Assembly: GCA_947496235.1 (NCBI GenBank)
Contig: CANMCE010000003.1
Span: 310,001 to 374,000 of the forward strand
Reading direction: 5' to 3'
Length of the DNA: 64,000 nt
DNA from: an uncultured Glaciecola sp.
Lineage (GTDB): Bacteria; Pseudomonadota; Gammaproteobacteria; Enterobacterales; Alteromonadaceae
Part shown: in pieces, positions 6,532 to 49,418 of the stretch
Numbering within the stretch: position 1 is the first letter of the stretch
How the letters are laid out: each line of letters begins with the position of its first letter
The notes under the pieces: generated by a model
What the model saw: only the letters and a program-made list of their open reading frames with translations
Databases searched by the model: none
What the model was told of the DNA's origin: nothing
Position numbers and translations under genes: made by a program

Positions 6532-6562
6532 AAAAAAGCGTTGCCTGAGCAACGCTTTTTTA
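6532..6562. terminator. Bidirectional terminator between gloA and the TPR gene
   Basis: Hairpin AAAAGCGTTGC / GCAACGCTTTT with a CTGA loop, A-run on the left and T-run on the right, between convergent genes; it can stop transcripts from both sides. Confidence 0.9.
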
Positions 6563-6592
6563 TGTCTATCCACTAGTGGTCATGCGCTAATG

Positions 6593-7909
6593 TCATGGCG
6601 CAGAATTTAAGCTTTGTTGCGCTTCAAATGTGGTGCGTTCACGACCAACAAATTGCTTCCATTGACGAGCAGAAGCTCGGCTTTGAGGAAACTCTTCCGC
6701 TTTCGATAACATCTCAATAGCTTCAGCAAACTGGCGTTTACTGTAGAGGGCCAATCCTAATACCATGTAGTTGTTACCAGGATTACGCAGATTACCTTTT
6801 TCATTTGCTTTATTTGCAGATGCAATAGCTTTATCAAAACGATCAGTGTTGTAATAGAGCAGTGCTAACTGCGCATCTAATACCCCATCATCAGATAATT
6901 CAGCTGCTTTCTCATAAGCGATAATGGCTTTCTCGTCTTCTTTCGCCGACTGCCAAGATTGCGCTAAGAATTCCATATTGCGCTTGTTAGCTTCTAATAT
7001 TCCTTCTTCTATCGCTTGATCCATCAAACGTGCACCTTTATACGGAACACCATTGAAGTAGTAGAGTTGCGCTAACATAAAGGTATCACCAGGCGAGGTT
7101 ACAAAACCTCTCTGATAGGCGATTTCCATGGTCGCTAGCTGCTTATCCCCTTGTTCCAACTCGCCATACATACCAGCTAATTGGATCCAGTATTTTGGCG
7201 CATCATACAAACGAATGAGTTTAGCTATGATGTCTTTGACTTTTTCAGGCTGTTTTAGCTCAAAGTAGATAGCACGTTGCAATACTAACCAGTTTTCATC
7301 CGGTAAATAGCCAGCAGCTTCATGATCAGCAATGGCTTGTTCCAAAATAGAAATCGCTTCTTCATAACGCTTACCTTGATACAAGGCTTGTGCTTTTAAC
7401 ACCAAATTTTTCGGCGGAATATCACCACTTGCTAAACCTTCCCAGCGATTCAAGTAATCCACCACAGCATCATAGTTACCCTGTACCATGTTTAACTGAG
7501 CCAAACTGTATAAAGCAGTTTGTTCAAATCCAACAGGGATTGGCGATTGGGAGACTGCCTTTTCAAACGCTTCTATAGTTTTAGCGTAGTCTTCTTGTTC
7601 GTAATAAATAAAGCCGTAGAAATTGTACATAGTGGCAATTTCATATGCATTCATACTATCCATTTTGGATTTTACTACATCCAAAATTTCAACTGCTTCT
7701 ACTGTGTTACCTTGATCGTTTGCCTCTTGAGCGCGAGACAATTGTTCGAATACTTTGGCTCGCAATGTAGGCACACGGCGAGTTTTCACTTCGCTTTCTT
7801 GCGCCACAGCTGAACTTAACGATATAACGCCGTTGCCAATAGACCCCGTCCACAATGTCACGGAAAGCAAGCAAAATGCAAGGCCAGTAAAGAGTGAATG
7901 AATTTTCAT
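6593..7909 (-). CDS. TPR protein of the TonB energising operon
   Basis: 438-residue exported protein, last gene of the six-gene TonB operon. Residues 1-36 form a signal peptide-like hydrophobic segment ending near VAQE. The rest is a solenoid of tetratricopeptide-like repeats, for example EIATMYNFYGFIYYEQEDYA followed by KTIEAFEKAV, and later LALLYYNTDRFDKAIASANKA. It is probably periplasmic, and by position it may support contacts between TonB, ExbB/ExbD and the outer-membrane receptors. The gene begins 19 bp after tonB with a strong GGAG ribosome binding site and ends before a strong terminator. This TPR partner is common in Alteromonadales TonB operons, but its exact role is not settled. 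Confidence 0.85.
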   Translation of the reverse strand: MKIHSLFTGLAFCLLSVTLWTGSIGNGVISLSSAVAQESEVKTRRVPTLRAKVFEQLSRAQEANDQGNTVEAVEILDVVKSKMDSMNAYEIATMYNFYGFIYYEQEDYAKTIEAFEKAVSQSPIPVGFEQTALYSLAQLNMVQGNYDAVVDYLNRWEGLASGDIPPKNLVLKAQALYQGKRYEEAISILEQAIADHEAAGYLPDENWLVLQRAIYFELKQPEKVKDIIAKLIRLYDAPKYWIQLAGMYGELEQGDKQLATMEIAYQRGFVTSPGDTFMLAQLYYFNGVPYKGARLMDQAIEEGILEANKRNMEFLAQSWQSAKEDEKAIIAYEKAAELSDDGVLDAQLALLYYNTDRFDKAIASANKANEKGNLRNPGNNYMVLGLALYSKRQFAEAIEMLSKAEEFPQSRASARQWKQFVGRERTTFEAQQSLNSAP

Positions 7910-7928
7910 ATTATTTGCTCCTTACCCG

Positions 7929-8534
7929 TTAGTTAAGTTCAAAGGTAACCTGGGTTTGCACCCCGGCCACATCAACGGCTTCGCCGTTAATAATCCGCGC
8001 TTTGTACTTATAACCTAGCACAGAATTAATTGCCGCTTGTTCAAAAATCCCTTCGGGTTCAGCTTTCACTACCACAGGGTCTTTTACTGTACCAAGTTTA
8101 GTCACAGTGAATTCCACTATTACGTAGCCTTGAATCCCACGCTGCATTGCGCGCCTTGGATACACAGCTTGCTGTCTAGCAATTGGTACAAAGTCACCAT
8201 CACCAGCACCTAGACTTGCACCACCTTCCAGACCAACATCTGCCGAGACATCAGCAGAGAAATCCATACCAGCACTTCCTGCATCCGGAGAACTAGACTC
8301 CATCGGCGGAGCCTGCATTTGTGGCGGTGGCTGCTCTGGTTTAGGCGGCTTACGCGGTTTTCTATCTTTTTGTTCTACCTGCTCTTCTTGTTTAACACGC
8401 ACAAAATCAAGTACTTTCCCCTGCGGCGGTTCACCCATTTCACCGCCACCAGTCTTGATTAAGTACTGCATTACAAAGAATAACCCCAAGGTTATTGCAG
8501 CAGCACAAAATAATGCAATGATGAATCTAATCAT
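7929..8534 (-). CDS. tonB: TonB-family energy transducer
   Basis: 201-residue inner-membrane protein spanning the periplasm, which transmits proton-motive force to outer-membrane receptors. The N-terminal transmembrane helix is residues about 4-26. It is followed by a charged and proline-rich linker (KPRKPPKPEQPPPQ), then a Gly/Ser/Asp-rich stretch, and a C-terminal TonB domain (about 115-201) with the YPRRAMQRGIQGYVIVEFTV core. It is shorter than E. coli TonB (239 residues), like the TonB2 class of Vibrio. It lies 4 bp after exbD and 19 bp before the TPR gene. A PHO-box-like site precedes the operon, so it is probably made under phosphate limitation. Confidence 0.93.
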   Translation of the reverse strand: MIRFIIALFCAAAITLGLFFVMQYLIKTGGGEMGEPPQGKVLDFVRVKQEEQVEQKDRKPRKPPKPEQPPPQMQAPPMESSSPDAGSAGMDFSADVSADVGLEGGASLGAGDGDFVPIARQQAVYPRRAMQRGIQGYVIVEFTVTKLGTVKDPVVVKAEPEGIFEQAAINSVLGYKYKARIINGEAVDVAGVQTQVTFELN

Positions 8535-8538
8535 GATC

Positions 8539-8946
8539 CTAAGGCTCTTGTGCTGCTATAGATACGTCTTCGATGCCTGCAGCTCTGGCTGCATCCATAA
8601 CCTTGATTAACACTTCAGTGGTAGATTTTCTATCTGCTTGAATTACCACAGTACCTTGGGGGTTTTCCGCGTATAAACGTTCAATGTTAGCCTGTACAGC
8701 GCGCGCATCTACTTTACGTTTATTGATCCAGATTTCACCTTTGTCACTGATCGCAACCAAAATACTCGCTCTATCTTTTTTAACAGCAGTAGCGGCATCA
8801 GGTCTATTAACGTCTATACCTGCTTCTTTTACGAATGAGGCTGTTACGATAAAGAAGATAAGCATGATAAATACAACGTCCAACATGGGCGTCATGTCGA
8901 TCGTGGCTTCTTCTTCGTCAACTAAGTTTTGAAAATGTTGCTTCAT
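8539..8946 (-). CDS. exbD: Biopolymer transport protein ExbD
   Basis: 135-residue ExbD/TolR-type protein, the proton-conducting partner of ExbB. The single transmembrane segment (about residues 20-42) carries the essential aspartate Asp23 within TPMLDVVFIMLIFF, equivalent to Asp25 of E. coli ExbD. The C-terminal periplasmic domain (about 60-133) has the expected VAISDKGEIWINKRKV and VVIQADRKSTTEVLIKVMD segments. It sits 24 bp after exbB and 4 bp before tonB, which suggests coupled translation and fixed stoichiometry. Confidence 0.94.
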   Translation of the reverse strand: MKQHFQNLVDEEEATIDMTPMLDVVFIMLIFFIVTASFVKEAGIDVNRPDAATAVKKDRASILVAISDKGEIWINKRKVDARAVQANIERLYAENPQGTVVIQADRKSTTEVLIKVMDAARAAGIEDVSIAAQEP

Positions 8947-8970
8947 ATAATTATTCCTTACTGCTGACTA

Positions 8971-9498
8971 TTAGCCAATGTCGCGATCTAACTGTAATTC
9001 ATCTTCTAAGTGCATACGCTCGGTCTTGGATACTCTTGCTAACCAAGTTGAAGCAAACACACCGGATAACGCGCCTACCATACCCGCCATCGTTGGTATA
9101 GTTGCCTTGGATACACCAGAGGCCATTGAACGAGCGTTCCCTGAACCTGTCATTGCCATTACATCAAATACTTCAATCATACCGGTTACCGTTCCCATTA
9201 ATCCCAGTAATGGGCAAAGCGCGACTAACGCTTGGATAATTGGAACACCTGCATTTAACCTTATGCTGACTCGTGAAATGTAAGCAGAACGAATTTGTTC
9301 TGCATTCCAGGATTTACGATCTTTTCGTTCTAGCCAGCTAGTAATAATGTGCTTTTTAAACGCACGATGTGTGGTATTGACATAAAATACACGTTCTAAG
9401 ATGAGCAGCCACATCACGAATATCAGCACACCGATGTAGACAAGTACTGTCCCACCGGTCTCTGTAAAATCGCGAATTGCTTCTAAAAACTCAATCAT
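8971..9498 (-). CDS. exbB: ExbB-type proton channel protein (short form)
   Basis: 175-residue MotA/TolQ/ExbB family member with three transmembrane segments (about 15-37, 90-115 and 130-155). The conserved core LCPLLGLMGTVTGMIEVF lies in the second helix, and AGMVGALSGVFAST in the third. It is the short 'ExbB2' type used with TonB2/TtpC systems. It starts 14 bp after the long TtpC-like gene and precedes exbD by 24 bp. Presence of both long and short ExbB paralogues in one operon is the hallmark of this system class. Confidence 0.93.
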   Translation of the reverse strand: MIEFLEAIRDFTETGGTVLVYIGVLIFVMWLLILERVFYVNTTHRAFKKHIITSWLERKDRKSWNAEQIRSAYISRVSIRLNAGVPIIQALVALCPLLGLMGTVTGMIEVFDVMAMTGSGNARSMASGVSKATIPTMAGMVGALSGVFASTWLARVSKTERMHLEDELQLDRDIG

Positions 9499-9512
9499 CG
9501 TGTAACCTTTAT

Positions 9513-10901
9513 TTATTGGTTAGCTGTTTTTTCAGCGCGCTCAGCAATAACGCCAGCAGCTTGTTCTTGCAATACATATACAATGTTCTTACTACGCGTG
9601 TTTAAGATTGCGTAAAGTAAGGTCATTGGAATTGCCACAACTAGACCTAAAACGGTAGTTACCAAGGCAGTTGAGATACCACCGGCCATTAATTTAGGGT
9701 CACCGGTTCCGAACAAAGTAATTTGTTGGAAGGTGATAATCATACCGGTAACAGTACCTAGTAACCCCATAAGCGGTGCTACTACAGAAATAATCTTGAT
9801 GATTGTCAGGAAGCGCCCTAATTTAGGTACTTCGCCTAAAATAGCTTCCGTTAAATGTAGCTCTAAAGACTCTGTATCAGCATGTGGATATTTGTCACGC
9901 ACTTGCATCACACGACCTAGTGGATTGCTGTCTTTGAACTCATCTGATTTAAGTTGCTTATTTACGCCAAGCTGGGTAATAGAAAGGCCAACCAAACGAA
10001 CCAAGGCAAGAGCCAAACCTATGGCGCCCACAATCAGAATAATGTATCCAACAATACCACCTTGCTCTACACGCTCTTTTAAACTCGGTGCTTGTACTAA
10101 TAAACCAAGAATTGAACCACCAGTAGGATCAAGGCCAAATTGCACTAACTCGCCATCAGAGGCTTCCAACTCTTCAATTGAGCTTAAAAATCTTGGTTGC
10201 GGCTGACGAATTAACTCAGCGACAGTTTCAGTCACACTGTCATAATCCAAATATTTGCCATTAGCGACTAAAGCAAAAGGACCTACACGAGTAATTTCTT
10301 TATTTACTTTAGAGCCACCAGCTTCAACAACTTCTGCAGTGAATTTGGTTACTTTTCCAGATTCAGTCATTTCACGTTGGATTTCAAACCAAACGCGCTC
10401 AATCTCTTCAATTGAGGCTAACTTAGAGCTATTGCCCATAGATTGTGCCATTTCATCTAAAAATTCAGCACGACCAGGGATTTGAGCAGAAATCACAGAG
10501 TTGTAGAATTTGTTTTTAGTGTCACCAGCAACTTGCTGTAGAACACCAAACAATTCTTTAAGTGAACCAAGTCGGTTATCTAAAGCACCGTTTAAGTCAG
10601 CTAATTTAAATTCATTTTCTTCGAATTGTGTTTCTAGCTGCTCAGATTGACGCAATAAAGCATCACGTCTAGCGGTGGTTTCTCTTAAAATTCTTTCTTG
10701 TTCAGCACGCTGGGAAACAAAGTCTGCTTCACGTTGTTTATTTTGCTGAGTTTGAGCAAATTTACCTTCTTCAAGTTGCTTCAATAGAGCATCTAAATCT
10801 AATGCTTTGTCGCTGTCTTGCGCAAGTACACCAAAAGACAAGATACCTGCAGCAGCAATAGTTGCAGCTTTGCCGACCAATGAATAAAACGTTGATTTCA
10901 T
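9513..10901 (-). CDS. TtpC-like long ExbB protein (MotA/TolQ/ExbB domain)
   Basis: 462-residue inner-membrane protein. It begins with a signal-peptide-like segment (about 1-27), followed by a long periplasmic coiled coil (about 32-125, rich in Q/E/R/L) and a periplasmic domain. The C-terminal third is a MotA/TolQ/ExbB domain with three transmembrane segments (about 283-305, 365-390 and 405-435), including APLMGLLGTVTGMIITFQ. This architecture matches TtpC, which is needed with TonB2-ExbB2-ExbD2 in Vibrio. It sits 11 bp after the DUF3450 gene. The family is clear; the mechanical role of the coiled coil is inferred. Confidence 0.9.
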   Translation of the reverse strand: MKSTFYSLVGKAATIAAAGILSFGVLAQDSDKALDLDALLKQLEEGKFAQTQQNKQREADFVSQRAEQERILRETTARRDALLRQSEQLETQFEENEFKLADLNGALDNRLGSLKELFGVLQQVAGDTKNKFYNSVISAQIPGRAEFLDEMAQSMGNSSKLASIEEIERVWFEIQREMTESGKVTKFTAEVVEAGGSKVNKEITRVGPFALVANGKYLDYDSVTETVAELIRQPQPRFLSSIEELEASDGELVQFGLDPTGGSILGLLVQAPSLKERVEQGGIVGYIILIVGAIGLALALVRLVGLSITQLGVNKQLKSDEFKDSNPLGRVMQVRDKYPHADTESLELHLTEAILGEVPKLGRFLTIIKIISVVAPLMGLLGTVTGMIITFQQITLFGTGDPKLMAGGISTALVTTVLGLVVAIPMTLLYAILNTRSKNIVYVLQEQAAGVIAERAEKTANQ

Positions 10902-10912
10902 CTTTTTTTCCC

Positions 10913-11677
10913 TTAGTCAGTAATTGCTACTGGCACCATTAATAAATCAGGTGCAAGTTGTTTCTTAGCAATTCGTAAACCTTTAGTTACTTGTGTACGG
11001 TAACTAGAGTCTAATTCTTCCCATTGTTGGGTGCTCTTGTTCCAAACGCCTTGGCGGCTTTGATCACGGGTTTGATAAAGCAAAGCTGTTCTACCTATAC
11101 GTAGAAAATCTACCGCTACTTGTTCGCCATCAATTGGTTGCAAACCAGCGTAGGCTTCAATTGTTCTGCCATAATCCATTTCGATTTGGAAAGCTTCCAT
11201 TACGCGGCGGAATTTTTCAGAAGGTGCAATGTTTGCTTGTTCCATTAGTGCTTTAAGATCAGTGATGCGGTCGGTACGCTCTTCTGATAAGAAAGGCATG
11301 TCTAACGCGATAAACTGTTCTAAACCGTCGATCATGTTTATCATTAATGGTGTGATCTGGCGCTCGATAACACTTACTTCATCGATAGCGTCATTCAGAT
11401 CTACCATCTCTTGTTCTTGGTTAGAAATTTGTTTGCGAAGTTGACCGTTATAAACTTCTAAGCCTTCAATTTCTTTTAGCAATGTTTTGTATTGCTGGAG
11501 TTTACTGTCGATCTGGCCAGCAATATTGTCGATTGTTTTCTGTGACTGTGCAGCAGATTCATTAATTTCGGTGGCAACTTGTTTTGCAGGCTCCAAATAC
11601 TGGTCTTCCTGCGCCAAAGCTGAAAACGATAAGGTTCCCGCTACAGCAATTGCCCCCAATGTAGATAACACCTTCAT
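10913..11677 (-). CDS. DUF3450 domain protein, first gene of the TonB operon
   Basis: 254-residue periplasmic protein with a signal peptide (cut likely after SFSALA, about residue 22) and a coiled-coil N-terminal half (about 35-105), matching DUF3450. The C-terminal half is mixed alpha/beta, with VAVDFLRIGRTALLYQTRD and a Trp-rich VWNKSTQQWEEL segment. DUF3450 proteins regularly precede TtpC/ExbB/ExbD/TonB genes in Alteromonadales and Vibrionales, so it is presumably an accessory of that machine. A PHO-box-like site lies 63 bp before its start, suggesting that it marks the operon promoter. Confidence 0.88.
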   Translation of the reverse strand: MKVLSTLGAIAVAGTLSFSALAQEDQYLEPAKQVATEINESAAQSQKTIDNIAGQIDSKLQQYKTLLKEIEGLEVYNGQLRKQISNQEQEMVDLNDAIDEVSVIERQITPLMINMIDGLEQFIALDMPFLSEERTDRITDLKALMEQANIAPSEKFRRVMEAFQIEMDYGRTIEAYAGLQPIDGEQVAVDFLRIGRTALLYQTRDQSRQGVWNKSTQQWEELDSSYRTQVTKGLRIAKKQLAPDLLMVPVAITD

Positions 11678-11740
11678 ACAAATTCCTAGAATGTTAATAT
11701 TGAGATATAGATTTAGACGAGCAGAGGATAGGAATTTTCT

Positions 11741-11758
11741 GTGACAGTTTTATTACAA
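11741..11758 (-). promoter_or_regulatory. PHO-box-like site upstream of the TonB operon
   Basis: On the minus strand: TTGTAAT-AAAA-CTGTCAC, which matches 16 of 18 positions of the E. coli PhoB operator pattern CTGTCAT-AWAW-CTGTMAY. It is 63 bp before the DUF3450 start codon and in the right orientation. Confidence 0.75.
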
Positions 11759-11860
11759 AACTTTAGGAAATAAACACGGTAACAAATATGTCATATTCGG
11801 AGAGTTTTTAGACAGCTTTTAATAACTGAATAGTCGTACTACCTAACACTTGATAAAAAA

Positions 11861-11891
11861 AACGCTATTTACCTTTTGGGTAAATAGCGTT
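11861..11891 (-). terminator. Terminator after the TonB-dependent receptor gene
   Basis: Perfect 13-bp stem (AACGCTATTTACC / GGTAAATAGCGTT) with a short loop, followed on the minus strand by eight T residues; separates the receptor gene from the TonB operon. Confidence 0.92.
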
Positions 11892-11912
11892 GATTAATCA
11901 CATGGGAGAAGA

Positions 11913-14558
11913 TTAATTAAAATCGTATCGATAAGTTAAACTAAAGGCCATACCGCGAGTTTCCGACCGCAGCAAGGTATCTTCAAATTCCAATTCCTTA
12001 TCTTGATTCAACATATTCTGCCATTTAAATGTTACCACTGTATTAAAGTCTGGGAAGAATTTATAAACCAAATCCAAAGAATGAAACGGTTTTTCATAGC
12101 TATCATCAAACCCATCAATACCAGGGATTAGAATACGATCACCAAATACGTTATAAACTAGAGACGCAGAATGTTCACCATTGTCTGAGTCAAAACCTAC
12201 TTGCATGTTAGCTACATATTCGGAATGACCTGTAAGCCTTCTAGTGGTATTGGTAATGGCGGCTGAAACACCTGTTTGCTCAACAATCTTTTGGCGATCT
12301 AATACAATTTCAGAATCACTCAATGTCAGGTTGCCAGATACAAACATGTTATCCCAGATGCCTTGACCGAATATTTCCAATCCTTGTAAAAATTCAACTT
12401 CAACACCATAAACTTCACCAGATTCAGCATTGGCAATACGAATCAAAGGCGGACCATCCTGCGCTGGAGACTGAACTGATTCAATTGGCGAATCCATATC
12501 TTTGTAGAATATACCAACTGAAAGGTTGTTTCCGGCTTCACGATACCATTCCCAACGCAAATCATAGTTGATAACAGAGGTAGTTCTAACACCTGGCGTA
12601 CCCGCAATTGGGAAATCCGTTAATGGATCAATATAGGTCGCTGAAGACACTTCCCTTAAATCAGGGCGTACTACAGTTTCACCAATTGAAGCTCTAAATT
12701 GCATGTCTTGACTTAGGAAGTAAGTCACAGCTACTGCAGGATAGAAATCATCTTCTTGGAAAGCTAATTGACTACGGTCAGCTTCATCCGGCAAATCAAT
12801 CTGATTTGATCTAGGATCGAAAGGCACAACAGCCTGACGGAAGTCTTCCCAACGAACGCCACCAGTAAAACGCCATTTGTTAGCATAAAAGAAATCACTT
12901 TCGAAATAGTAAGCATCCACTTTTACGCCAGCAACATAATCGTCACCTGCAATTGTAGTATCACGAATCACTGCAGTTTGATTAAAATCTGCAGTATCTA
13001 GCACTTGATCACTAAAAATGTCACCAAACACTGAACCTTCTAATAAGCTACTATCAGCAAAGGCACGGGTACTTATATCAAACCGGCGATTCTCTGCTGT
13101 TCTGGCTTTTGTTAAGAAATCAGCGCCGGCTTTAAATTCCATTTCCCAATCGCTAACGATAAGAGGAAATGTAAAGTTGTAGCCGAAGTTCTCAACTCTA
13201 TCGTGTAGAATTTGGAAAGAATAACGCCCTGCTGTAGGTGCATTGGTTAAACTGATCTCATTATCTCGATCAAAAATCCCATCGCCATTGTCATCTTCAA
13301 TAACAAACCTTGCTTCGAAATTGCCCGGTGCATCACGATACGAACGACCTTCAGAATAACGCCAATCAAAGCCTAAGTAATTTAACTCAGGAAAGGTATG
13401 GATACCTTTTAGCTGATTAACAAATAAACGTCTTTCTTCATACTCAGTGCTGATATCACGTATTCTAAAACCTTCCGCTTGAGATAAGTTTTCGGTGTTA
13501 CCGTATTGCTCTTTAATCTCATCACGAGTGTCGTTTAGCATAATTACGCTGTAATCAACGGTGTGATTACGATTATAGTCAATCCCTGTGTTAAACAAAG
13601 TCGACCATTTTACCGAACGTTCTGTTGAACGCACTTCATCGAAAAAGCGCACAATCACAACTTCGTCTTGTACCCTATCCGCTTGTTGTAATTCGTACTC
13701 TTCAGACACTTGAGTCTTAGCGTCATAACCTGTGGTTAATAAAAAGCCTAAACGCCATTTATTGTCTAAGTCATAGCTATTACCAAAGGCAAAATCGAAT
13801 TTACCGTCTGGTCCTATGCTTTTTTCAAACGGGTCATAATCGCGTTTCACTTGTGAAAACAGGCCTAAAGCGACATCTTGGTCAAGATTATCCAAGAAAT
13901 CCTTGTTTGCCCATCGCTCTTGAATCGCTAAAGGAGCGGCTCTAGATCCGTCATCTTGACCTCTCCAGTCATTACCACCGCCGTTATAATCAAGCCCATT
14001 ACTCGAGTTTTCAGAATTATAACCTGTACCTACTGCAACATTCAGAATCAAATCTGTCGGTATAGTTTTCAAGCGAATATCAACATTACCACCACCAAAA
14101 GATGCTGGCATTGAAGGAGAGTACGATTTTTGAACAGATAAACTTTCAATGATTTGAGACGGGAACAAATCTAACGGAATTACGTTTCTTGTTGGATCAG
14201 GTGAAGGCACAGAAGACGCATTTAATTGCGTACTTGAATAACGCTCACCCAAACCACGAACATAAATAAATTTGCCATCAACCAAGGTCAAACCTGTGAC
14301 ACGACGAAGGGCTGCCGCAGCATCGCTGTCACCTGTTCTTGAAATTTGTTCGGCCCCTAAAATATCAGCAACGAAAGCTTGATTCTTACGCTCTTCTAAT
14401 ACTGCTGTAGCTGTACCTTTAAGACGAGTACCAGTGGTCACCACTTCATCAATAACTTCTTCGTCTTCCTGTGCTTGCACAGAAGGTATAAGACTAAATG
14501 CAGCTAGCATTGCTAGACTTAGTTGCTTTAGTGGAAACCTATTGTCAGGCTTATACAT
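11913..14558 (-). CDS. TonB-dependent outer-membrane receptor in the phosphate block
   Basis: 881-residue receptor. Signal peptide about 1-29 (cut after VQA). A TonB-box-like stretch (EEVIDEVVTTG) is at about 32-43. The plug domain (about 45-170) has the typical LRRVTGLTLVDGKFIYVRGLG segment in two parts and a FGGGNVDIRLKT end. The 22-stranded barrel closes with Tyr/Phe-rich strands (...FSLTYRYDFN). It takes up an unknown ligand across the outer membrane using TonB energy. It follows the two-fold repeated lipoprotein gene by about 100 bp and a weak hairpin, and lies between PhoB-associated genes and the TonB operon. A phosphorus-containing ligand is therefore likely but not shown. No PHO-box was seen in its own leader. 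Confidence 0.9.
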   Translation of the reverse strand: MYKPDNRFPLKQLSLAMLAAFSLIPSVQAQEDEEVIDEVVTTGTRLKGTATAVLEERKNQAFVADILGAEQISRTGDSDAAAALRRVTGLTLVDGKFIYVRGLGERYSSTQLNASSVPSPDPTRNVIPLDLFPSQIIESLSVQKSYSPSMPASFGGGNVDIRLKTIPTDLILNVAVGTGYNSENSSNGLDYNGGGNDWRGQDDGSRAAPLAIQERWANKDFLDNLDQDVALGLFSQVKRDYDPFEKSIGPDGKFDFAFGNSYDLDNKWRLGFLLTTGYDAKTQVSEEYELQQADRVQDEVVIVRFFDEVRSTERSVKWSTLFNTGIDYNRNHTVDYSVIMLNDTRDEIKEQYGNTENLSQAEGFRIRDISTEYEERRLFVNQLKGIHTFPELNYLGFDWRYSEGRSYRDAPGNFEARFVIEDDNGDGIFDRDNEISLTNAPTAGRYSFQILHDRVENFGYNFTFPLIVSDWEMEFKAGADFLTKARTAENRRFDISTRAFADSSLLEGSVFGDIFSDQVLDTADFNQTAVIRDTTIAGDDYVAGVKVDAYYFESDFFYANKWRFTGGVRWEDFRQAVVPFDPRSNQIDLPDEADRSQLAFQEDDFYPAVAVTYFLSQDMQFRASIGETVVRPDLREVSSATYIDPLTDFPIAGTPGVRTTSVINYDLRWEWYREAGNNLSVGIFYKDMDSPIESVQSPAQDGPPLIRIANAESGEVYGVEVEFLQGLEIFGQGIWDNMFVSGNLTLSDSEIVLDRQKIVEQTGVSAAITNTTRRLTGHSEYVANMQVGFDSDNGEHSASLVYNVFGDRILIPGIDGFDDSYEKPFHSLDLVYKFFPDFNTVVTFKWQNMLNQDKELEFEDTLLRSETRGMAFSLTYRYDFN

Positions 14559-14609
14559 AACTACCCTCTTTACCTGTTGATCTTTAAATTTAATTTTACT
14601 TTTTTACAA

Positions 14610-14640
14610 CAAAGTGCGCTGCAATAACTGCAGCGCACTT
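14610..14640 (-). terminator. Hairpin between lipoprotein and receptor genes
   Basis: Stem AAGTGCGCTGCA / TGCAGCGCACTT with an ATAAC loop. The T-run after it on the minus strand is poor (TTTGTTG), so it may act as an attenuator or mRNA-stabilising hairpin that lowers receptor relative to lipoprotein expression rather than a full terminator. Confidence 0.65.
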
Positions 14641-14660
14641 TATCTAAGGCTCGCGCCGAT

Positions 14661-17432
14661 TTAAAGACCTACAGTCCAGCCGGCCGTCCAATCATCATCT
14701 GCACCTTTAACAGCACCGATAAAGTCAACGTCTGTAAAGAAGCTATCAACAGCTGTTAAATCAGCTGAAGGCGTTGCATCAGTAGTGAAGTAACCATCAA
14801 CTACCGCTGTTCCATCTGTAAAGATAGTGGTGTTTGGTTGAGCAGCTACCCAAGCAGTAGTATCAAAACCAGCTGAATCTCTCACCGCTTCACCACAAGA
14901 AATGACTGAGTTTTCAAATCTTAAACCGTTAGCGTTAGTACCATCAACATTGGCTAATAATGTAGCGTCGTCAACTAAGTCAAGTTCGAAACACTCACCC
15001 ATTCCAGTAGGACCAGTGATAACAAAGTTAAACAACTGAGCATTGGTTTGGTCACGCAATAACACACCCTCAGAATCATCTGTACCATCATAGGTGTTTC
15101 CGATAATGGTCATATTTGCCACTAGTGGGTTAGAGAATGCAGTACCAGAACCGCCATCACCGTCACCTTCAATACCACGGTTAGCATCTGAGTTATCTTC
15201 AGCATGTTTAACTAGCACGAATTGTAACTTACCTACGTAACCGTTGTCCCAGTCAACTGAGTCATCTTGAATACCGGTTAAAACTAGGTATTTAGCATTT
15301 ACGTTACCGCCGAAGAATTCAACACCATCGTCAGCATTTTTGTGCACTTGAAGATATTCAATAAGGGTGCCCGAACCAACACCACCAAAAGTGATACCGT
15401 TAAGTTCATTATCCGGTGCGATTTCGAAACCGCCGTGCATAACGCGTACATAGCGAAGTGTACCAGAGTTATCTTCAGTATCAGTTCCACCAAATACAGC
15501 ACCTTCTTGCGCACCTTCCACTTGAAGTGAACAAGCAGAACCGTCGGTAGGACATTTAGTTGAAGGCGCGTTACCTAACAAGATCATGCCGCCCCATTGA
15601 CCTGCTGCACCATTTGCCAATCCAGCTTCAACACCATTCGCAACGTGGTCACGAGATGTAAAAGTTATAGGGTTACTTGAAGTACCGTCTGCAACAATGC
15701 GTGAACCACGGCTTACCACTAGATAGTCATTACCAGAAGCGCCATAAACTACAACACCTGGATCAACTGTTAATGTTGCGCTATTTTCATTATCGCCACC
15801 AACAAATACTGCGCCATCAAGAGCATAATGGTTGCCTGCAGTTAAACGAAGATTTGAGGTAATGCGACCTGAAATCTGACAAGTGTTAGTTGAACCGTCA
15901 ACTGAAGGGATTGTAGTAGTACCTGAAGGACAGCCTGATTGTGATTGTACAACTTCAATTGTAGCGCCACCAAAACCAAATGCCCAACCTTGTCTCCAAT
16001 CATCAGCACCCACAGCACCCACAAATTCGTTAGTATCGAAGAAAGAATCTAAGGTAGATGGATTACCACCAGCTGTGCGAAGTGTACTTTGAGCCGTTAG
16101 CGTACCGTCTTGGTTAAGACCTAGGTTTGCACGGTTTTCAAACGCAATTAATTGGTTGCCATCTTGATCAGTAGTGAACCAAGTTTCTAAGTTAACAACA
16201 TCATTGCCAAAGTTAAACGGTTCTGAACAAGAGATAACAGAGTTTGAAATCGTGATACCACCGTTAGTTAGGTTACCTTGAACAGTATCATCAGTATCCA
16301 TTTCTAAACACTCGCCCATACCTTCAGGACCAGTGATTAGCATGTTCATGATGCGTGCACCCGTTTGGTCACGAAGTAAAACACCTTCAGAATCGTCTTC
16401 ACCGTCGAATTCGTTACCAATGATGGTAATGTTTGCAACCATAGGTAGAGAGAAGTTTGTGCCGTCACCACCGTCACCATCACCTTCAATACCGCGGTTT
16501 GCGTCTGAGCTATCAGCAGCATGTTCAATATAAACATATTGCAACTTACCGTTATAGCCGTTATCCCAGTCTACAGAATCGTCTTGAATAGAAGTTAAAA
16601 CAAGGTGTTTAGCGTTTACAGAGCCACCGAAGAATTCTACACCGTCGTCAGCATTAGCATGTACTTGTACATAATCAACTTCAGTACCAGAACCTACACC
16701 ACCAAAAGTGATACCGTTAAGTTCGTTGTCTGGTGCAATCTCAAAACCAGCGTACTTAATTACGAAATAACGCAAAATACCTGAATCATCAGCGCTATCT
16801 GTGCCGCCAAATACTGCACCTTCTTGAACACCTTCAACTTGAAGTGAACATGTAGAACCGTCAGTTGGGCATTTAGTAGATGGAGCGTTACCTAGGATAA
16901 CTAAACCACCCCATTGGCCTGCAGATACTTCATCACCAATAACATCGTTGTAAGAAGTCATTATGATTGGACTGTTTGCTGTACCTTCCGCTTCGATCTG
17001 CGAATCACGGCTAACTACTAAGTAGTCGGCACCGCGGCTACCGAAAATGATGGTGCCCTCTTCAATTTCTAATACAACGCTATCAGCTTTGTCATTACCA
17101 ACAAAAACCGGACCTTCTAGCGCCCAAACAGTGTCGTTAGTTAAACGAATTACACCATTGTTTGTGTCATCGGCGACTAGTCGACCAGAAAGCGTGCGTA
17201 CTTCCACAGATTGACCAAGAGCAGTTGAAACTTCACTTGAAAGGAAGCTGTTAGATTCACCTGGTTTAGTGTCATCTGGAGTTGTTGGCGTTTGGCCGCC
17301 ACCGTTATTTGTTACGCTATTATCACTGTTATCGATAATATCGCCTTCTGAAATATTAATATCACCACCACATGCTGCTAGTGTGATTGTTGCAGCTAGT
17401 GCTGATACTTTAAAAAGTCCGTTAAGTTTCAT
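14661..17432 (-). CDS. Large lipoprotein built of two homologous halves, partner of the receptor
   Basis: 923-residue exported lipoprotein. The lipobox TLAAC puts the acylated Cys at residue 21, followed by an acidic and Thr/Pro-rich spacer. The mature chain contains two very similar domains (about 82-400 and 521-838), each with the same landmarks: LVVSR..S.I.A.GT, QWGG(L/M)(V/I)(I/L)LGNAPSTKCPTDG, FEIAPDNELNGITFGGVGSG, DDGVEFFGG and SDANRGIEGDGDGG. The regular short strands suggest right-handed beta-helix or parallel beta-solenoid folds, and the Asp-rich loops could bind metal ions. The cysteine pairs may form disulfides. It lies directly upstream of a TonB receptor and downstream of phoBR-pstS, with a PHO-box-like site 59 bp ahead. 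It may be a surface capture protein for the receptor. The family has no function that I can name. Confidence 0.85.
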   Translation of the reverse strand: MKLNGLFKVSALAATITLAACGGDINISEGDIIDNSDNSVTNNGGGQTPTTPDDTKPGESNSFLSSEVSTALGQSVEVRTLSGRLVADDTNNGVIRLTNDTVWALEGPVFVGNDKADSVVLEIEEGTIIFGSRGADYLVVSRDSQIEAEGTANSPIIMTSYNDVIGDEVSAGQWGGLVILGNAPSTKCPTDGSTCSLQVEGVQEGAVFGGTDSADDSGILRYFVIKYAGFEIAPDNELNGITFGGVGSGTEVDYVQVHANADDGVEFFGGSVNAKHLVLTSIQDDSVDWDNGYNGKLQYVYIEHAADSSDANRGIEGDGDGGDGTNFSLPMVANITIIGNEFDGEDDSEGVLLRDQTGARIMNMLITGPEGMGECLEMDTDDTVQGNLTNGGITISNSVISCSEPFNFGNDVVNLETWFTTDQDGNQLIAFENRANLGLNQDGTLTAQSTLRTAGGNPSTLDSFFDTNEFVGAVGADDWRQGWAFGFGGATIEVVQSQSGCPSGTTTIPSVDGSTNTCQISGRITSNLRLTAGNHYALDGAVFVGGDNENSATLTVDPGVVVYGASGNDYLVVSRGSRIVADGTSSNPITFTSRDHVANGVEAGLANGAAGQWGGMILLGNAPSTKCPTDGSACSLQVEGAQEGAVFGGTDTEDNSGTLRYVRVMHGGFEIAPDNELNGITFGGVGSGTLIEYLQVHKNADDGVEFFGGNVNAKYLVLTGIQDDSVDWDNGYVGKLQFVLVKHAEDNSDANRGIEGDGDGGSGTAFSNPLVANMTIIGNTYDGTDDSEGVLLRDQTNAQLFNFVITGPTGMGECFELDLVDDATLLANVDGTNANGLRFENSVISCGEAVRDSAGFDTTAWVAAQPNTTIFTDGTAVVDGYFTTDATPSADLTAVDSFFTDVDFIGAVKGADDDWTAGWTVGL

Positions 17433-17491
17433 TCGATTCTCCGATGAGATTGGTCGTTAATACAAAAACGCCAAAATCCTATCGCAGTAAA

Positions 17492-17509
17492 GTGACAGAA
17501 TTGTTACAT
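17492..17509 (-). promoter_or_regulatory. PHO-box-like site upstream of the two-domain lipoprotein gene
   Basis: On the minus strand: ATGTAAC-AATT-CTGTCAC, 14 of 18 positions matching the PhoB operator pattern, with a perfect second half-site; 59 bp before the start codon. Confidence 0.6.
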
Positions 17510-17516
17510 TAGTTTA

Positions 17517-17534
17517 CTGTCACAAAAGTTTCAC
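17517..17534 (+). promoter_or_regulatory. Second, oppositely oriented PHO-box-like site
   Basis: On the plus strand: CTGTCAC-AAAA-GTTTCAC, 15 of 18 positions. It is next to the preceding site but points away from the lipoprotein gene, toward the end of the pstS-like gene; its role, if any, is unclear. Confidence 0.45.
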
Positions 17535-17563
17535 ACAAAACTTTAACCTATTGATTTATATGT

Positions 17564-18556
17564 TTATTTTAAATTACCAGACAAAAGTCTAAGTTGTCGT
17601 TCAAGTGCTCGACCGGTTACTGGATAGTAGTTTGTAGAGCTTACTAAAGACTGCCCTTCTGCTGATAAAACAAAGCGTAAGAAGGTATCTTCGAGGGTTG
17701 GTAGAGGTTGTTCTGGTGGTTTGTTAACCACTATGTATAAAAAGCGGGTAAATGGATAATGGTTGGCATTAATGTCTTTGGCATTAGGTAGGTAGTAGTT
17801 TTCTCCATCTTGGCTTATCGCGATAGGCTTCACATTTCGGTTTTGCGGTCCCAAAGCGGCGTAACCTATGCCACCTATACTAGCAGCCACAGACTGCACG
17901 ATAGACGAAGATGAAGGCATTTCATTGGTAGTTACCGCATAATCGCCGCCACAGAGAGCAAGTTTTTTAAATAGGTCGTAAGTTCCGGACGCTGAATTTC
18001 GACCAAAGATTTGAATTTGGCGATGAGCGCCAAATTTTTTCACCCCAAGTTGCTCCCAACTCACTATAGACTCGCGATACCCGCAAAATCGAGTTGCCGA
18101 AAATATTGCATCTACTTGCGCAATGGTAAGCCTTTCAATAGGGTTGCTGCGTTCGGTGTATATACTTATGGCATCAATAGCAACGATAAGGGCTGTGGGT
18201 GGATAACCATATTGGCGAATAAAACGATCGATTTCCACTTCTGTTAAGGCGCGACTCATAGGACCAATACTGGCTGTTCCTTGAGTAAGTGCCTGAGAGG
18301 CGGTTGCAGAACCCGTGGCTTGCATTTGAAATTTTACGTGGGGGTAGTATTGTTGAAACTGGTCAGCCCAAATCGCCATTAAATTTGCCAAGGTATCAGA
18401 ACCGATGGAAGTCACACTACCAAATACCCCAGGCGTATTTTTATAATCTTCGGGTAAAGTGACAGTATCAGATTGTTGCCCATTACTAGTTGCAACCAGA
18501 AACAGCGTGCAGCAAAAAAATCCGATTTTCATCCAGGCTAGGCTTGGGTTAGACAT
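17564..18556 (-). CDS. PstS-like phosphate-binding periplasmic protein
   Basis: 330-residue substrate-binding protein of the PBP-like type II fold used by phosphate ABC transporters. The signal peptide is about residues 1-27 (ends TSNGQ). The conserved start of the mature domain, GSDTLANLMAIWADQF, and the ligand-binding SASGTYDLFKKL segment are present, as is TASQALTQGTASIGPMSR. It begins 3 bp after phoR, so it is probably translated from the phoB-phoR transcript. No pstCAB genes are in the window, so it either serves a transporter encoded elsewhere or acts as a phosphate sensor or scavenger for PhoR. The family is clear; the transporter link is not. Confidence 0.85.
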   Translation of the reverse strand: MSNPSLAWMKIGFFCCTLFLVATSNGQQSDTVTLPEDYKNTPGVFGSVTSIGSDTLANLMAIWADQFQQYYPHVKFQMQATGSATASQALTQGTASIGPMSRALTEVEIDRFIRQYGYPPTALIVAIDAISIYTERSNPIERLTIAQVDAIFSATRFCGYRESIVSWEQLGVKKFGAHRQIQIFGRNSASGTYDLFKKLALCGGDYAVTTNEMPSSSSIVQSVAASIGGIGYAALGPQNRNVKPIAISQDGENYYLPNAKDINANHYPFTRFLYIVVNKPPEQPLPTLEDTFLRFVLSAEGQSLVSSTNYYPVTGRALERQLRLLSGNLK

Positions 18557-18559
18557 AGC

Positions 18560-19867
18560 TTAATTGTTATTCTCAGCCACAAGTTCTTGAGGTAAAACAA
18601 AGGAAAACTCGCTTCCCTTCCCTAAAGTACTTTCAATTTCAAAGTTAGCATTATGATGATGAAGTACGTGCTTTACAATAGAGAGGCCTAATCCAGATCC
18701 ACCCGTTTTACGACTTCTGGCTTTATCTACCCGATAAAAGCGCTCTGTAAGTCGTCTTAAGTGCTTATCTTCAATGCCTTCACCATTATCGATAACCGCA
18801 AAATAAGCGCCATTGGCACGCCGTTTCCATATCACTTGAATATGGCCTTGATTTGGAGTGTAGTGAATTGCATTAAATATCAAATTTGAACATGCACTTC
18901 GAAGTTCTGTTTCTACCCCATAGACACACAAGTCTTGGTCAATATTAAATTCGATTTTATGTTGCTTGTCTTTATTTAAAGCGGCTGCTTCTGCATTTAA
19001 TTGTTTAAACATAGAAGGCATATCAATCACTTTCTCAAAAATACGTTCAGAACTGGACTCAATACGAGAAAGTATCAACAAATCTTCAATCAAGGCGCGC
19101 ATTCTTTGAGATTGTGCACCCATTTCAGAAATCGCTTTTTGCACTATAGGTTGGGTATCTTCAACGCTAGATTCAAGCACTTCTAAATAACCATTGATTA
19201 CAGTCAAAGGCGTTTTTAATTCGTGGGACACATTGGCCACAAAATCTTTACGCATTTCTTCTAAATGAGACACTCGGGATACGTCTCGCACAATCAACAA
19301 TAACTGGTCTTCACCGTATTGCATCATACGATATTCAAAGGTTTTAAAGGGGTTGGTAGGGGCAGGAATTTCGATTGGATATTGAAAATTCCCAGCTTCC
19401 AAATATTCGACAAACTCAGGATTTCGGATCAGATTATCAATCCGTCGCCCGTTGTCATCAGGCCATCGTAAGCCTAATTCAATTCTAGCGTTACGATTAC
19501 ACCATATAATTCTAGCATTGCTGTCAATGACCACAACAGCATCTGGCAAAGCCTCAGAACCTTCTCGAAAACGTTTTACCAATTGGCCTAAATTTTTGCG
19601 TTTGTTACGATTTCGTCGTTGTAAATGGTAAACCCCTTCGTATATGTGATGCCATATGCCAGGTGCGCTGGGTGGCGACATAGTGCGACTTTGCCAAAGC
19701 CACTTGGTAAGTCGATATAGATGCACATAGTTCACCAATAACAAAACGGCTAACGCAATTAATAACGCAAGGGTAATATTATCTATGTATAGCCCAATCA
19801 ACAGGCTCACGAAGATGTAAACGCAAAAGCGCTTAGCCGTTCGTGACCAAGATTGAGGATAATACAT
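18560..19867 (-). CDS. phoR: Phosphate regulon sensor histidine kinase PhoR
   Basis: 435-residue membrane kinase that phosphorylates PhoB when phosphate is scarce. Two closely spaced N-terminal transmembrane segments (about 14-27 and 30-50) leave almost no periplasmic loop, as in E. coli PhoR. A PAS domain follows (about 100-200). The H-box is VSHELKTPLTVING with phospho-acceptor His215. The ATPase domain has NLIFNAIHYTPNQG, DNGEGIEDKHL and GGSGLGLSIVKH. The gene starts 24 bp after phoB and ends 3 bp before the pstS-like gene, forming one operon. Confidence 0.95.
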   Translation of the reverse strand: MYYPQSWSRTAKRFCVYIFVSLLIGLYIDNITLALLIALAVLLLVNYVHLYRLTKWLWQSRTMSPPSAPGIWHHIYEGVYHLQRRNRNKRKNLGQLVKRFREGSEALPDAVVVIDSNARIIWCNRNARIELGLRWPDDNGRRIDNLIRNPEFVEYLEAGNFQYPIEIPAPTNPFKTFEYRMMQYGEDQLLLIVRDVSRVSHLEEMRKDFVANVSHELKTPLTVINGYLEVLESSVEDTQPIVQKAISEMGAQSQRMRALIEDLLILSRIESSSERIFEKVIDMPSMFKQLNAEAAALNKDKQHKIEFNIDQDLCVYGVETELRSACSNLIFNAIHYTPNQGHIQVIWKRRANGAYFAVIDNGEGIEDKHLRRLTERFYRVDKARSRKTGGSGLGLSIVKHVLHHHNANFEIESTLGKGSEFSFVLPQELVAENNN

Positions 19868-19891
19868 AGAGTTACCTAGTGGAAATTCACA

Positions 19892-20581
19892 TTAGAGTTT
19901 GGTCGAAAATCTATAACCAGAACCACGCACGGTTTGAATCATCGCATCATGTTGATGTTTAGATATCGCCTTTCGCAAACGTCGAATATGCACATCCACG
20001 GTACGATCTTCTACATACACATTAGTGCCCCAAACGTTATCTAGCAGTTGCTCTCGGCTATAAACACGTTCTGGATGGGTCATAAAAAAGTGCAATAACT
20101 TAAATTCAGTTGGGCCCATATCCACAGCATCACCATTGCTTGATACTCGATGGGAAACAGGCTCTAAAATAAGCCCATCAAATTCTATCGGTTCTTCCTT
20201 AGACGTTGGCGTTACCCGGCGCATTACTGCTTTGATTCGCGCGAGTAATTCTTTCGGCGAAAATGGCTTTGTAACGTAATCATCAGCGCCAGCTTCTAAG
20301 CCTCGGATTTTATCGTCTTCTTCACTGCGCGCCGTTAACATTATAACGGGAATGTCTTTGGCAATATCATGTTGTTTGAGTTTTTTAGCTAATTGAACGC
20401 CGCTACCTCCTGGTAACATCCAATCTAACAAAATTAAATCGGGATAAGGTTCTTTAATCTTATCTAAGCCAACATCATAATCTTCAGCTTCTTCAACTGT
20501 AAAACCCGCCTGCTCTAACACAAAACTTAGCATGTCTCTGATAGGGGCTTCGTCTTCAACTAACAAAATAGTACGCGACAT
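19892..20581 (-). CDS. phoB: Phosphate regulon response regulator PhoB
   Basis: 229-residue OmpR-type regulator. The receiver domain (1-120) has the acidic pair Glu9/Asp10, phospho-acceptor Asp53 in [11 protein letters not shown], and KPF at the end. The winged-helix DNA-binding domain (about 130-229) has [14 protein letters not shown] and [12 protein letters not shown]. The start is set at [11 protein letters not shown] (20581), where the family begins; in-frame ATGs at 20599 and 20668 would add up to 29 residues lacking homology and would place the start beyond a PHO-box-like site. Probably autoregulated. Confidence 0.95.
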
Positions 20582-20631
20582 TTTTTTCACTCGTGTCATA
20601 TTTAAAACCGACCGTATTATTAGAGTGATCT

Positions 20632-20649
20632 GTGACAGTTTTATGAAAC
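20632..20649 (-). promoter_or_regulatory. PHO-box-like site upstream of phoB
   Basis: On the minus strand: GTTTCAT-AAAA-CTGTCAC, 16 of 18 positions of the PhoB operator pattern; 50 bp before the phoB start codon used here. Supports autoregulation. Confidence 0.8.
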
Positions 20650-20682
20650 ATTGCACAAAAGATGTCAAGTTATCTCCTTGTT

Positions 20683-20700
20683 TTTTCAGTTTTATGACAA
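20683..20700 (-). promoter_or_regulatory. Second PHO-box-like site upstream of phoB
   Basis: On the minus strand: TTGTCAT-AAAA-CTGAAAA, 15 of 18 positions; 33 bp further upstream than the first site (three helical turns), on the same DNA face. Confidence 0.55.
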
Positions 20701-49400: not shown

Positions 49401-49418
49401 GTGACAAAATTTTGACGG
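49401..49418 (-). promoter_or_regulatory. PHO-box-like site upstream of the fusion nuclease
   Basis: On the minus strand: CCGTCAA-AATT-TTGTCAC, 14 of 18 positions of the PhoB operator pattern, 66 bp before the start codon, the same distance class as the other sites in this window. Confidence 0.55.

Follow-up and report, generated by a model that had tools for sequence, protein, structure and literature searches.

Accounts of TonB systems mostly treat the energy supply as tied to iron or as general. We describe here a six-gene TonB motor operon from a 64,000-nt stretch of DNA of an uncultured Glaciecola sp. (contig CANMCE010000003.1, positions 310,001 to 374,000; hereafter the window), whose promoter and gene neighborhood point to phosphate. 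Its closest described counterparts are the TonB2 and TonB3 operons of Vibrio vulnificus, which hold the same six genes in identical order (PMC6957404). It has been reported that ttpB2 and ttpD2 are essential for TonB2 function in this species, that several siderophores are taken up through TonB2 (PMC6957404), and that TonB3-type motors are not iron-regulated and have no known function (PMC6957404, PMC10734418). We assign a probability of about 0.77 to the reading that the window encodes a Pho-regulon outer-membrane uptake machine equipped with a dedicated TonB motor.

Receptors of this general kind have precedents, as phosphate-controlled TonB-dependent receptors are already described (PMC11208175), and pairs formed by such a receptor and an ElpS-like lipoprotein were reported from starvation studies in two phyla (PMC2996285, PMC8115612). 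In Caulobacter, the gene for the surface lipoprotein ElpS (CC0170) is followed by the receptor gene cc0171, and ElpS was found to be made specifically under phosphate starvation, with iron having no effect (PMC2996285). The PUSIV cluster of Flavobacterium johnsoniae (Fjoh_0543-0546) resembles the window cluster in that it encodes PhoR, PhoB, a TonB-dependent transporter, and the lipoprotein FII, which the Flavobacterium authors related to the Caulobacter protein. Depletion of phosphate was reported to induce its receptor and FII strongly, and limitation of nitrogen or of iron to repress them (PMC8115612). The accessible text of these two reports mentions neither a dedicated motor for the Caulobacter pair (PMC2996285) nor a TonB motor in PUSIV (PMC8115612).

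A looser precedent for the motor is exbB2-exbD2-tonB4 (PA0693-0695) of Pseudomonas aeruginosa, a TonB energizer under phosphate and PhoB control. It was reported to need the sigma factor VreI in addition to PhoB, whereas family searches of the genes at 6593-20668 of the window turned up no sigma factor gene. The P. aeruginosa genes are located among genes for two-partner secretion and for the secretion of LapA, are called uncharacterized, and are described in the available parts of the sources with no mention of ttpB, ttpC, or ttpD (PMC7035377, PMC4971064). In the open-licence literature, we found no description of a ttpB-type motor in a Pho regulon. The individual parts are known, and what seems to be new is a clade of such motors inside this regulon.

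In the features given below, a PHO box is a match to CTGTCATWWWWCTGTCAY, the Escherichia coli consensus. Throughout, a box was counted when it had no more than three mismatches and lay on the strand of the gene within the upstream stretch (200 bp in the survey of loci, 250 bp in the survey of ttpB types). The cluster is transcribed from the minus strand and runs as follows.

20632..20649, minus strand: PHO-box-like site before phoB, 2 mismatches, with AATAAT 10 nt downstream
19892..20668, minus strand: phoB response regulator gene (Pfam Response_reg and Trans_reg_C)
18560..19867, minus strand: phoR sensor kinase gene (NCBIfam PRK11006.1, 537.8 bits against a cut-off of 390)
17564..18556, minus strand: gene for the phosphate-binding protein PstS (TIGR02136, 204.1 bits, just below the cut-off of 206.6)
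17517..17534, plus strand: opposite-strand PHO-box-like site upstream of the next two boxes, from the consensus scan
17492-17509 and 17481-17498, minus strand: two overlapping PHO-box-like sites before the lipoprotein gene, 3 mismatches each
14661..17432, minus strand: gene for an ElpS-like lipoprotein of 923 amino acids, here called LIPO, with the lipobox LAACGGD at residues 18-24
11913..14558, minus strand: gene for a TonB-dependent receptor, the partner of LIPO (Pfam Plug and beta-barrel)
11861..11891, minus strand: intrinsic terminator 3' of the receptor gene (13-pair stem and T run, -17.4 kcal/mol, z -6.8)
11741..11758, minus strand: PHO-box-like site of the motor operon, 2 mismatches, reading TTGTAATAAAACTGTCAC
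11725..11730, minus strand: TATCCT, a -10-like hexamer exactly 10 nt downstream of that box
10913..11677, minus strand: ttpB-like gene, DUF3450 (PF11932, 295.3 bits)
9513..10901, minus strand: ttpC-like gene with a MotA/TolQ/ExbB domain (PF01618, 102 bits)
8971..9498, minus strand: exbB (PF01618, 75.8 bits)
8539..8946, minus strand: exbD (PF02472, 111.3 bits)
7929..8534, minus strand: tonB (PF03544, 66.4 bits)
6593..7909, minus strand: ttpD-like gene for a TPR protein (several TPR families), the last of the operon

An initial annotation of this DNA had described a compact operon of these six motor genes, adjoined by genes for PhoB, PhoR, a PstS-like protein, a receptor, and a lipoprotein, and had placed a PHO-box-like site with 16 of 18 positions matched upstream of the operon in the correct orientation. 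Family matches and gene calls bear out this layout, to which they and the scans add the boxes before LIPO and phoB and the terminator between the receptor gene and the motor operon. The motor genes are separated by gaps of only 4-24 bp, and the box precedes the ttpB ATG by 63 bp and faces in the direction of the gene. The box is placed as in a promoter and is followed at a distance of 10 nt by a -10-like element, as is typical of Pho regulon promoters, a layout that fits direct activation by PhoB. Across the window, the consensus finds 7 matches at up to three mismatches where 1.3 are expected, and none of 100 shuffled versions reached 7.

The case for phosphate control of the motor comes mainly from comparison with relatives. 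We searched 59 Alteromonadaceae genomes from 52 genera with the window TtpB and found two types of this protein (not counting one additional weak fragment). Type 1 comprises 43 copies with 50-100% identity to the window protein, one per genome. Type 2 comprises 63 copies with 31-44% identity, occurs in 58 of the 59 genomes, and is represented in the Glaciecola genome itself by a copy on contig C23. A PHO box precedes 34 of the 43 type-1 genes and none of the 63 type-2 genes. Boxes are present before 27 of the 32 type-1 genes located within 25 kb of a LIPO gene, and also before 7 of the 11 that are more than 90 kb away or sit on a different contig. A comparison free of any consensus gave a corresponding picture, as TGTCACA occurs upstream of 29/43 type-1 and 0/63 type-2 genes, CTGTCAC upstream of 16/43 and 0/63, and CTATCCT upstream of 12/43 and 0/63.

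The spacing of the -10 element is likewise shared among relatives. For ttpB (34 promoters), agreement with TATAAT at offset 10 from the box averages 3.6 of 6 positions, and phoB (9 promoters) reaches 4.7, in both cases the highest of all offsets, whereas most other offsets give 1-2.5. For LIPO (24 promoters), offset 10 averages 3.0 and offset 8 is slightly higher at 3.2; the window hexamer 10 nt after the LIPO box is TAGGAT. These comparisons give good support to phosphate control of the motor, and the earlier suggestion that the operon looks phosphate-regulated can be retained.

A second survey concerned the loci themselves. LIPO occurs in 45 family genomes besides that of the window, and we retrieved the locus (up to 20 kb) from 40 of them. 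Excluded from the 200-bp analysis were rows below about 38% identity or with short upstream stretches, including two phoB matches of 34% and the type-2 copy of the Glaciecola genome. Boxes were found before phoB in 10/17, before LIPO in 22/40, and before ttpB in 16/23 loci, compared with averages of at most 0.15 boxes in shuffled upstream stretches. A reversed-consensus control gave 3/40 for LIPO and 2/23 for ttpB, and opposite-strand boxes numbered 9/40 and 1/23. The opposite-strand site upstream of LIPO has a counterpart about 90 bp before the LIPO start in about half of the 40 orthologs. Boxes are rare before pstS (1/12) and absent in this survey before the other downstream genes: receptor 0/40, phoR 0/17, ttpC 0/23, exbB 0/22, and tonB 0/21.

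We also examined 80 loci from named organisms, the best of 534 confirmed stretches containing LIPO, some of which are from the same genomes as the family set. LIPO is readable in 73 of them, and 69 of these have a receptor match; 19 carry exbD, and in 19 a phoB-like match is accompanied by a phoR-like one, with low identities in distant taxa. For loci of the Alteromonadaceae kind, a box precedes 13 of 14 ttpB and 19 of 29 LIPO genes. The nearest named relative that we found is Glaciecola pallidula (LIPO 75% identity).

The motor and the lipoprotein also occur together. Among the 59 family genomes, 43 have both LIPO and the type-1 motor, 3 have LIPO only, none has the motor only, and 13 have neither. 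Put differently, the motor is found in 43 of 46 genomes with LIPO and in 0 of 13 without (Fisher p 1.4e-10, a value that overstates independence because the genomes are related, although they span 52 genera). LIPO adjoins the receptor gene in 40/40 family loci, and the six-gene order of the motor is kept in relatives. In a midpoint-rooted tree of TtpB, TtpC, ExbB, and ExbD with 49 tips, the LIPO-linked motors form a group of 35 tips with support of 0.69, of which 33 are joined at 1.0, with locus L370 beside them. The Aeromonas operon L255 and the operons L358-L365 are placed next to this group, and Vibrio and Salinivibrio operons (L252-L254), together with the C23 operon of the Glaciecola genome, are placed on the far side. 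Because LIPO guided the sampling of the LIPO-linked tips, this tree is not an independent test of the association.

Comparison with the Vibrio systems can now be made more specific. For TonB2, an iron-induced system, a possible Fur site is described, whereas the 19-bp Fur consensus given in PMC6957404 has no match within three mismatches anywhere in the window, and its best matches before type-1 ttpB genes have 6-9 mismatches of 19. A Fur site, which together with an iron response the initial annotation had named as refuting evidence, is not in sight at this level of matching. In the tree, the window motor stands apart from Vibrio TonB2-type operons, on the side of Aeromonas L255. TonB3, compared here by gene order, has a receptor gene at the start of its operon and is apparently not iron-regulated. 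The window receptor gene also precedes the motor operon, but a terminator stands between the two, as does a PHO-box promoter of the operon's own.

Several observations weigh against the proposed machine or limit its reach. Three family genomes (G010, G045, and G047) have the LIPO-receptor pair and no type-1 motor. At the level of the order, LIPO was found in 32 of 197 genomes, and outside the family 17 of 18 LIPO genomes lack this motor; in the exception, G222, the motor is linked to the pair, and the site before its ttpB has as many as 5 mismatches. Because the pair exists in other genomes without the type-1 motor, this motor is not obligatory, and presumably a different motor can serve the pair. 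Beyond Alteromonadaceae, only 4 of 43 LIPO genes in the named loci have a box. Matches to the reversed consensus are somewhat raised in type-1 promoters (6/43, compared with 1/63 for type 2), and genome-wide matches to the consensus are near background (98 versus 87 for the reversed form). The genome-wide scan was accordingly rejected as proof. Given this background, a single site proves little, and it is conservation that carries the argument. Of 16 other genome-wide sites inspected, 4 have a nearby open reading frame of at least 70 amino acids in the same direction, and 2 of those 4 lie inside another open reading frame. The pstCAB-phoU region of the Glaciecola genome has no PHO box within three mismatches, and its one 4-mismatch site is inside an open reading frame. 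From Caulobacter come the reports that cc0171 is expressed constitutively and that re-folded or immunoprecipitated ElpS showed no phosphatase activity (PMC2996285).

Gene order belongs among these limits as well. The phoB ortholog (71-91% identity) is present in 17/40 family loci, and also in named Alteromonadaceae loci; ttpB is in 23/40, all with the pair. Yet phoB, phoR, the pair, and the motor stand together in only 9/40, and with pstS added in 7/40. The full block is recurrent among relatives and not universal, and the arrangement, which the initial annotation thought would be unusual, is neither unique nor without the precedent of a phosphate-controlled TonB system in P. aeruginosa. Nor does one block hold the whole chain from sensor to motor, as had been supposed. 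The genes pstC-pstA-pstB-phoU are encoded at G000:C3:235861-241074 (L381), about 80 kb from the cluster (on the same numbering, the window is G000:C3:310001-374000). No PstS match was found beside them, and the PstS gene of the cluster is the only full-length copy of the TIGR02136 type found in the genome, where one other weak partial match was seen. The open reading frames divergent from pstC-pstA-pstB-phoU look like ppk/ppx, judged by eye only.

Under the reading that we prefer, the dedicated Pho-regulon machine would work in the following way. At low phosphate, PhoR would activate PhoB, which would then bind the boxes predicted before phoB, the LIPO-receptor pair, and the motor operon. LIPO, probably located on the cell surface, would capture a phosphorus-containing substrate or present it to the receptor. 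A complex of TtpB, TtpC, ExbB, ExbD, TonB, and TtpD, with roles assigned from their families, would pull the substrate into the periplasm at the expense of the proton gradient, where PstS would hand phosphate to PstCAB. The type-2 motor, of the same build, is kept besides. Since this second motor has no PHO box, the phosphate motor can be viewed as an added, condition-specific unit. The sequences show the gene content, the promoter sites and how far these are conserved, and the co-occurrence; from them we infer the surface position of LIPO, the pairing of receptor and motor, the phosphorus substrate, and PhoB binding. The putative commitment of the motor to phosphorus, as originally suggested, gains from its co-occurrence with LIPO and from the published starvation induction of the Caulobacter and Flavobacterium lipoproteins.

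If an entire clade of motors is in the phosphate regulon, as appears to be the case, its hosts would have a separate power line for phosphorus. These hosts include relatives of Alteromonas, Pseudoalteromonas, and Colwellia, bacteria of sea water that can face a shortage of phosphate. The proposal also gives ElpS-like lipoprotein-receptor pairs a role that can be tested, and it provides a lead for the related TonB3-type motors.

The nature of the substrate is a separate matter. Further along the window are two features that bear on it.

49401-49418, minus strand: PHO-box-like site, 3 mismatches, 66 bp before the start of the nuclease gene
44766-49334, minus strand: gene for an ExeM/NucH-type extracellular nuclease (Endonuclease_1, lamin-tail, and Exo_endo_phos domains)

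This nuclease is possibly a further Pho-regulon product that lets the cell feed on DNA phosphorus. Because a probable Pho-controlled extracellular nuclease is encoded in the same window, we lean slightly toward a substrate that is organic or mixed rather than phosphate alone. In the corresponding version of the preferred reading, organic phosphorus compounds or fragments of phosphorylated polymers are imported, and enzymes outside the cell or in the periplasm free the phosphate. We consider the odds of this version to be about even. A PhoX phosphatase gene lies beside LIPO in one named locus (L163), and authors working on Caulobacter and Flavobacterium have suggested that such receptors serve to obtain phosphorus from alternative donors (PMC11208175, PMC8115612). 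It must be set against this that family searches recognized no phosphatase or phosphodiesterase among the cluster genes, that PstS and PhoBR, which handle phosphate, adjoin the pair, and that five named loci have four consecutive pst/phoU genes near LIPO (L122, L136, L144, L180, and L182; L068 and L120 have a partial set). The bolder proposal, in which a PhoB-controlled TonB machine with a phosphate-binding surface lipoprotein uses the proton gradient to pump inorganic phosphate itself over the outer membrane, we regard as doubtful. If true, high-affinity phosphate uptake would be active at both membranes, with no reliance on diffusion through outer-membrane porins.

Other explanations dispense with a dedicated phosphorus importer. 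The operon could be an all-purpose or iron TonB motor that gained a PHO box, serves many receptors, and boosts their energy supply under starvation. The TonB2 system of V. vulnificus, with the same six genes, does serve several siderophores (PMC6957404), and the LIPO genomes of other families mostly manage without the type-1 motor. This explanation nevertheless appears improbable, because within the family the type-1 motor occurs only in genomes that have LIPO, a nearly universal type-2 motor without PHO boxes is already at hand, and the window offers no match to the Fur consensus within three mismatches. TonB-dependent receptors can signal, and phoBR are in the same cluster, so that the LIPO-receptor-TonB unit might be a phosphate sensor that reports to PhoR and imports nothing. 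We consider this very unlikely, given that the domains recognized in PhoR (PhoR and PAS) are the usual ones, that family searches of the cluster genes revealed no sigma/anti-sigma pair, and that deletion of cc0171 in Caulobacter was reported to leave ElpS production going (PMC2996285). The idea that the motor performs Tol-like envelope work, for example in remodeling membrane lipids during starvation, draws on the finding that ExbB and ExbD also score with the TolQ and TolR models of NCBIfam and on the fact that the mechanics of TtpB, TtpC, and TtpD are not known. With the motor tracking LIPO so closely in the family and the C-terminal domain of TonB intact by Pfam, we find this idea hardly credible.

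Some details of the individual genes complete the description. The phoB open reading frame as listed opens at a TTG, and the PHO box lies upstream of internal ATGs; the true start is probably the ATG at 20599 or 20581. The phoR gene is the only one found in its genome at E <= 1e-60, and the presence of this sole PhoR and the sole full-length PstS in the cluster speaks for the preferred reading. The genome also holds five TonB C-terminal matches. The N-terminal part of the TtpC-like protein has a weak DUF3450 match (PF11932, 24.4 bits) that is under the cut-off.

The lipoprotein has few recognizable features. LIPO had no match in Pfam, NCBIfam, or PHROG at an E value of 0.001, a sequence search against solved structures returned only matches with E values of at least 0.47, and the same search gave none at 0.001 for the receptor. 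Residues invariant across 57 aligned LIPO sequences include D262, D263, E266, D284, D285, and D288, and it is only a guess that they form a metal or phosphate site. Short, single-unit relatives match one half of LIPO, and relatives seem to differ in how many repeat units they have. The lipoproteins of L125, L126, L127, L131, and L173 are longer, at about 1360 amino acids compared with 923, and single-unit forms elsewhere have about 530. On synteny and on relatives such as that of Brevundimonas (L181, 40% identity), the window pair is predicted to match Caulobacter ElpS/CC0171. The Caulobacter pair precedes a type II secretion system, whereas the window pair follows phoB-phoR-pstS and precedes the TonB motor. 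The Caulobacter order cc0170-cc0171-gspC (PMC2996285) agrees with 14 named loci where LIPO and the receptor are followed by gspD, with or without gspC and gspE. In Psychroflexus (L172), LIPO, receptor, phoB, and phoR lie in a row, which recalls the phosphate-induced PUSIV of Flavobacterium (PMC8115612).

Two groups of related operons were considered as further phosphate motors and rejected. The intermediate ttpB operons of L255 (the TonB3-like motor of Aeromonas) and its kin L358-L365 (41-47% identity) have no LIPO on the examined stretches and no box, the best match before their ttpB genes having 5 mismatches (L361). The Aeromonas L255 operon has a receptor gene in front, as does the window operon, and this receptor belongs to another subfamily than the window receptor. 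The genomes of L358-L360 (G119, G100, and G136) carry LIPO elsewhere. The Vibrio loci L252 and L253 are similarly not considered phosphate-linked, as their nearby PhoB/PhoR-like pair is only 34-35% like PhoB and no PHO box is present, the best site having at least 6 mismatches. Each combines this two-component pair, a large receptor-sized open reading frame, and a six-gene TonB2-type motor in one block, an arrangement that resembles the peuRS-peuA-tonB2 locus named in PMC4141801. The large open reading frame lies directly before the motor in L253, and two minus-strand open reading frames intervene in L252.

Relatives of the cluster or of LIPO are also found on a plasmid and on contigs classed as viral. 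Plasmid pBGP9 of Alteromonas macleodii (L256, 238 kb, predicted to be non-mobilizable) carries a complete phoB-phoR-pstS-lipoprotein-receptor-motor cluster, which for this reason may travel as a block. LIPO relatives occur on 65 IMG/VR viral contigs (L186-L250) and in three phage records, one of them 635 kb in length. Among the genes neighboring LIPO on two of these viral contigs (L187 and L195), two of the five tested had a PHROG match.

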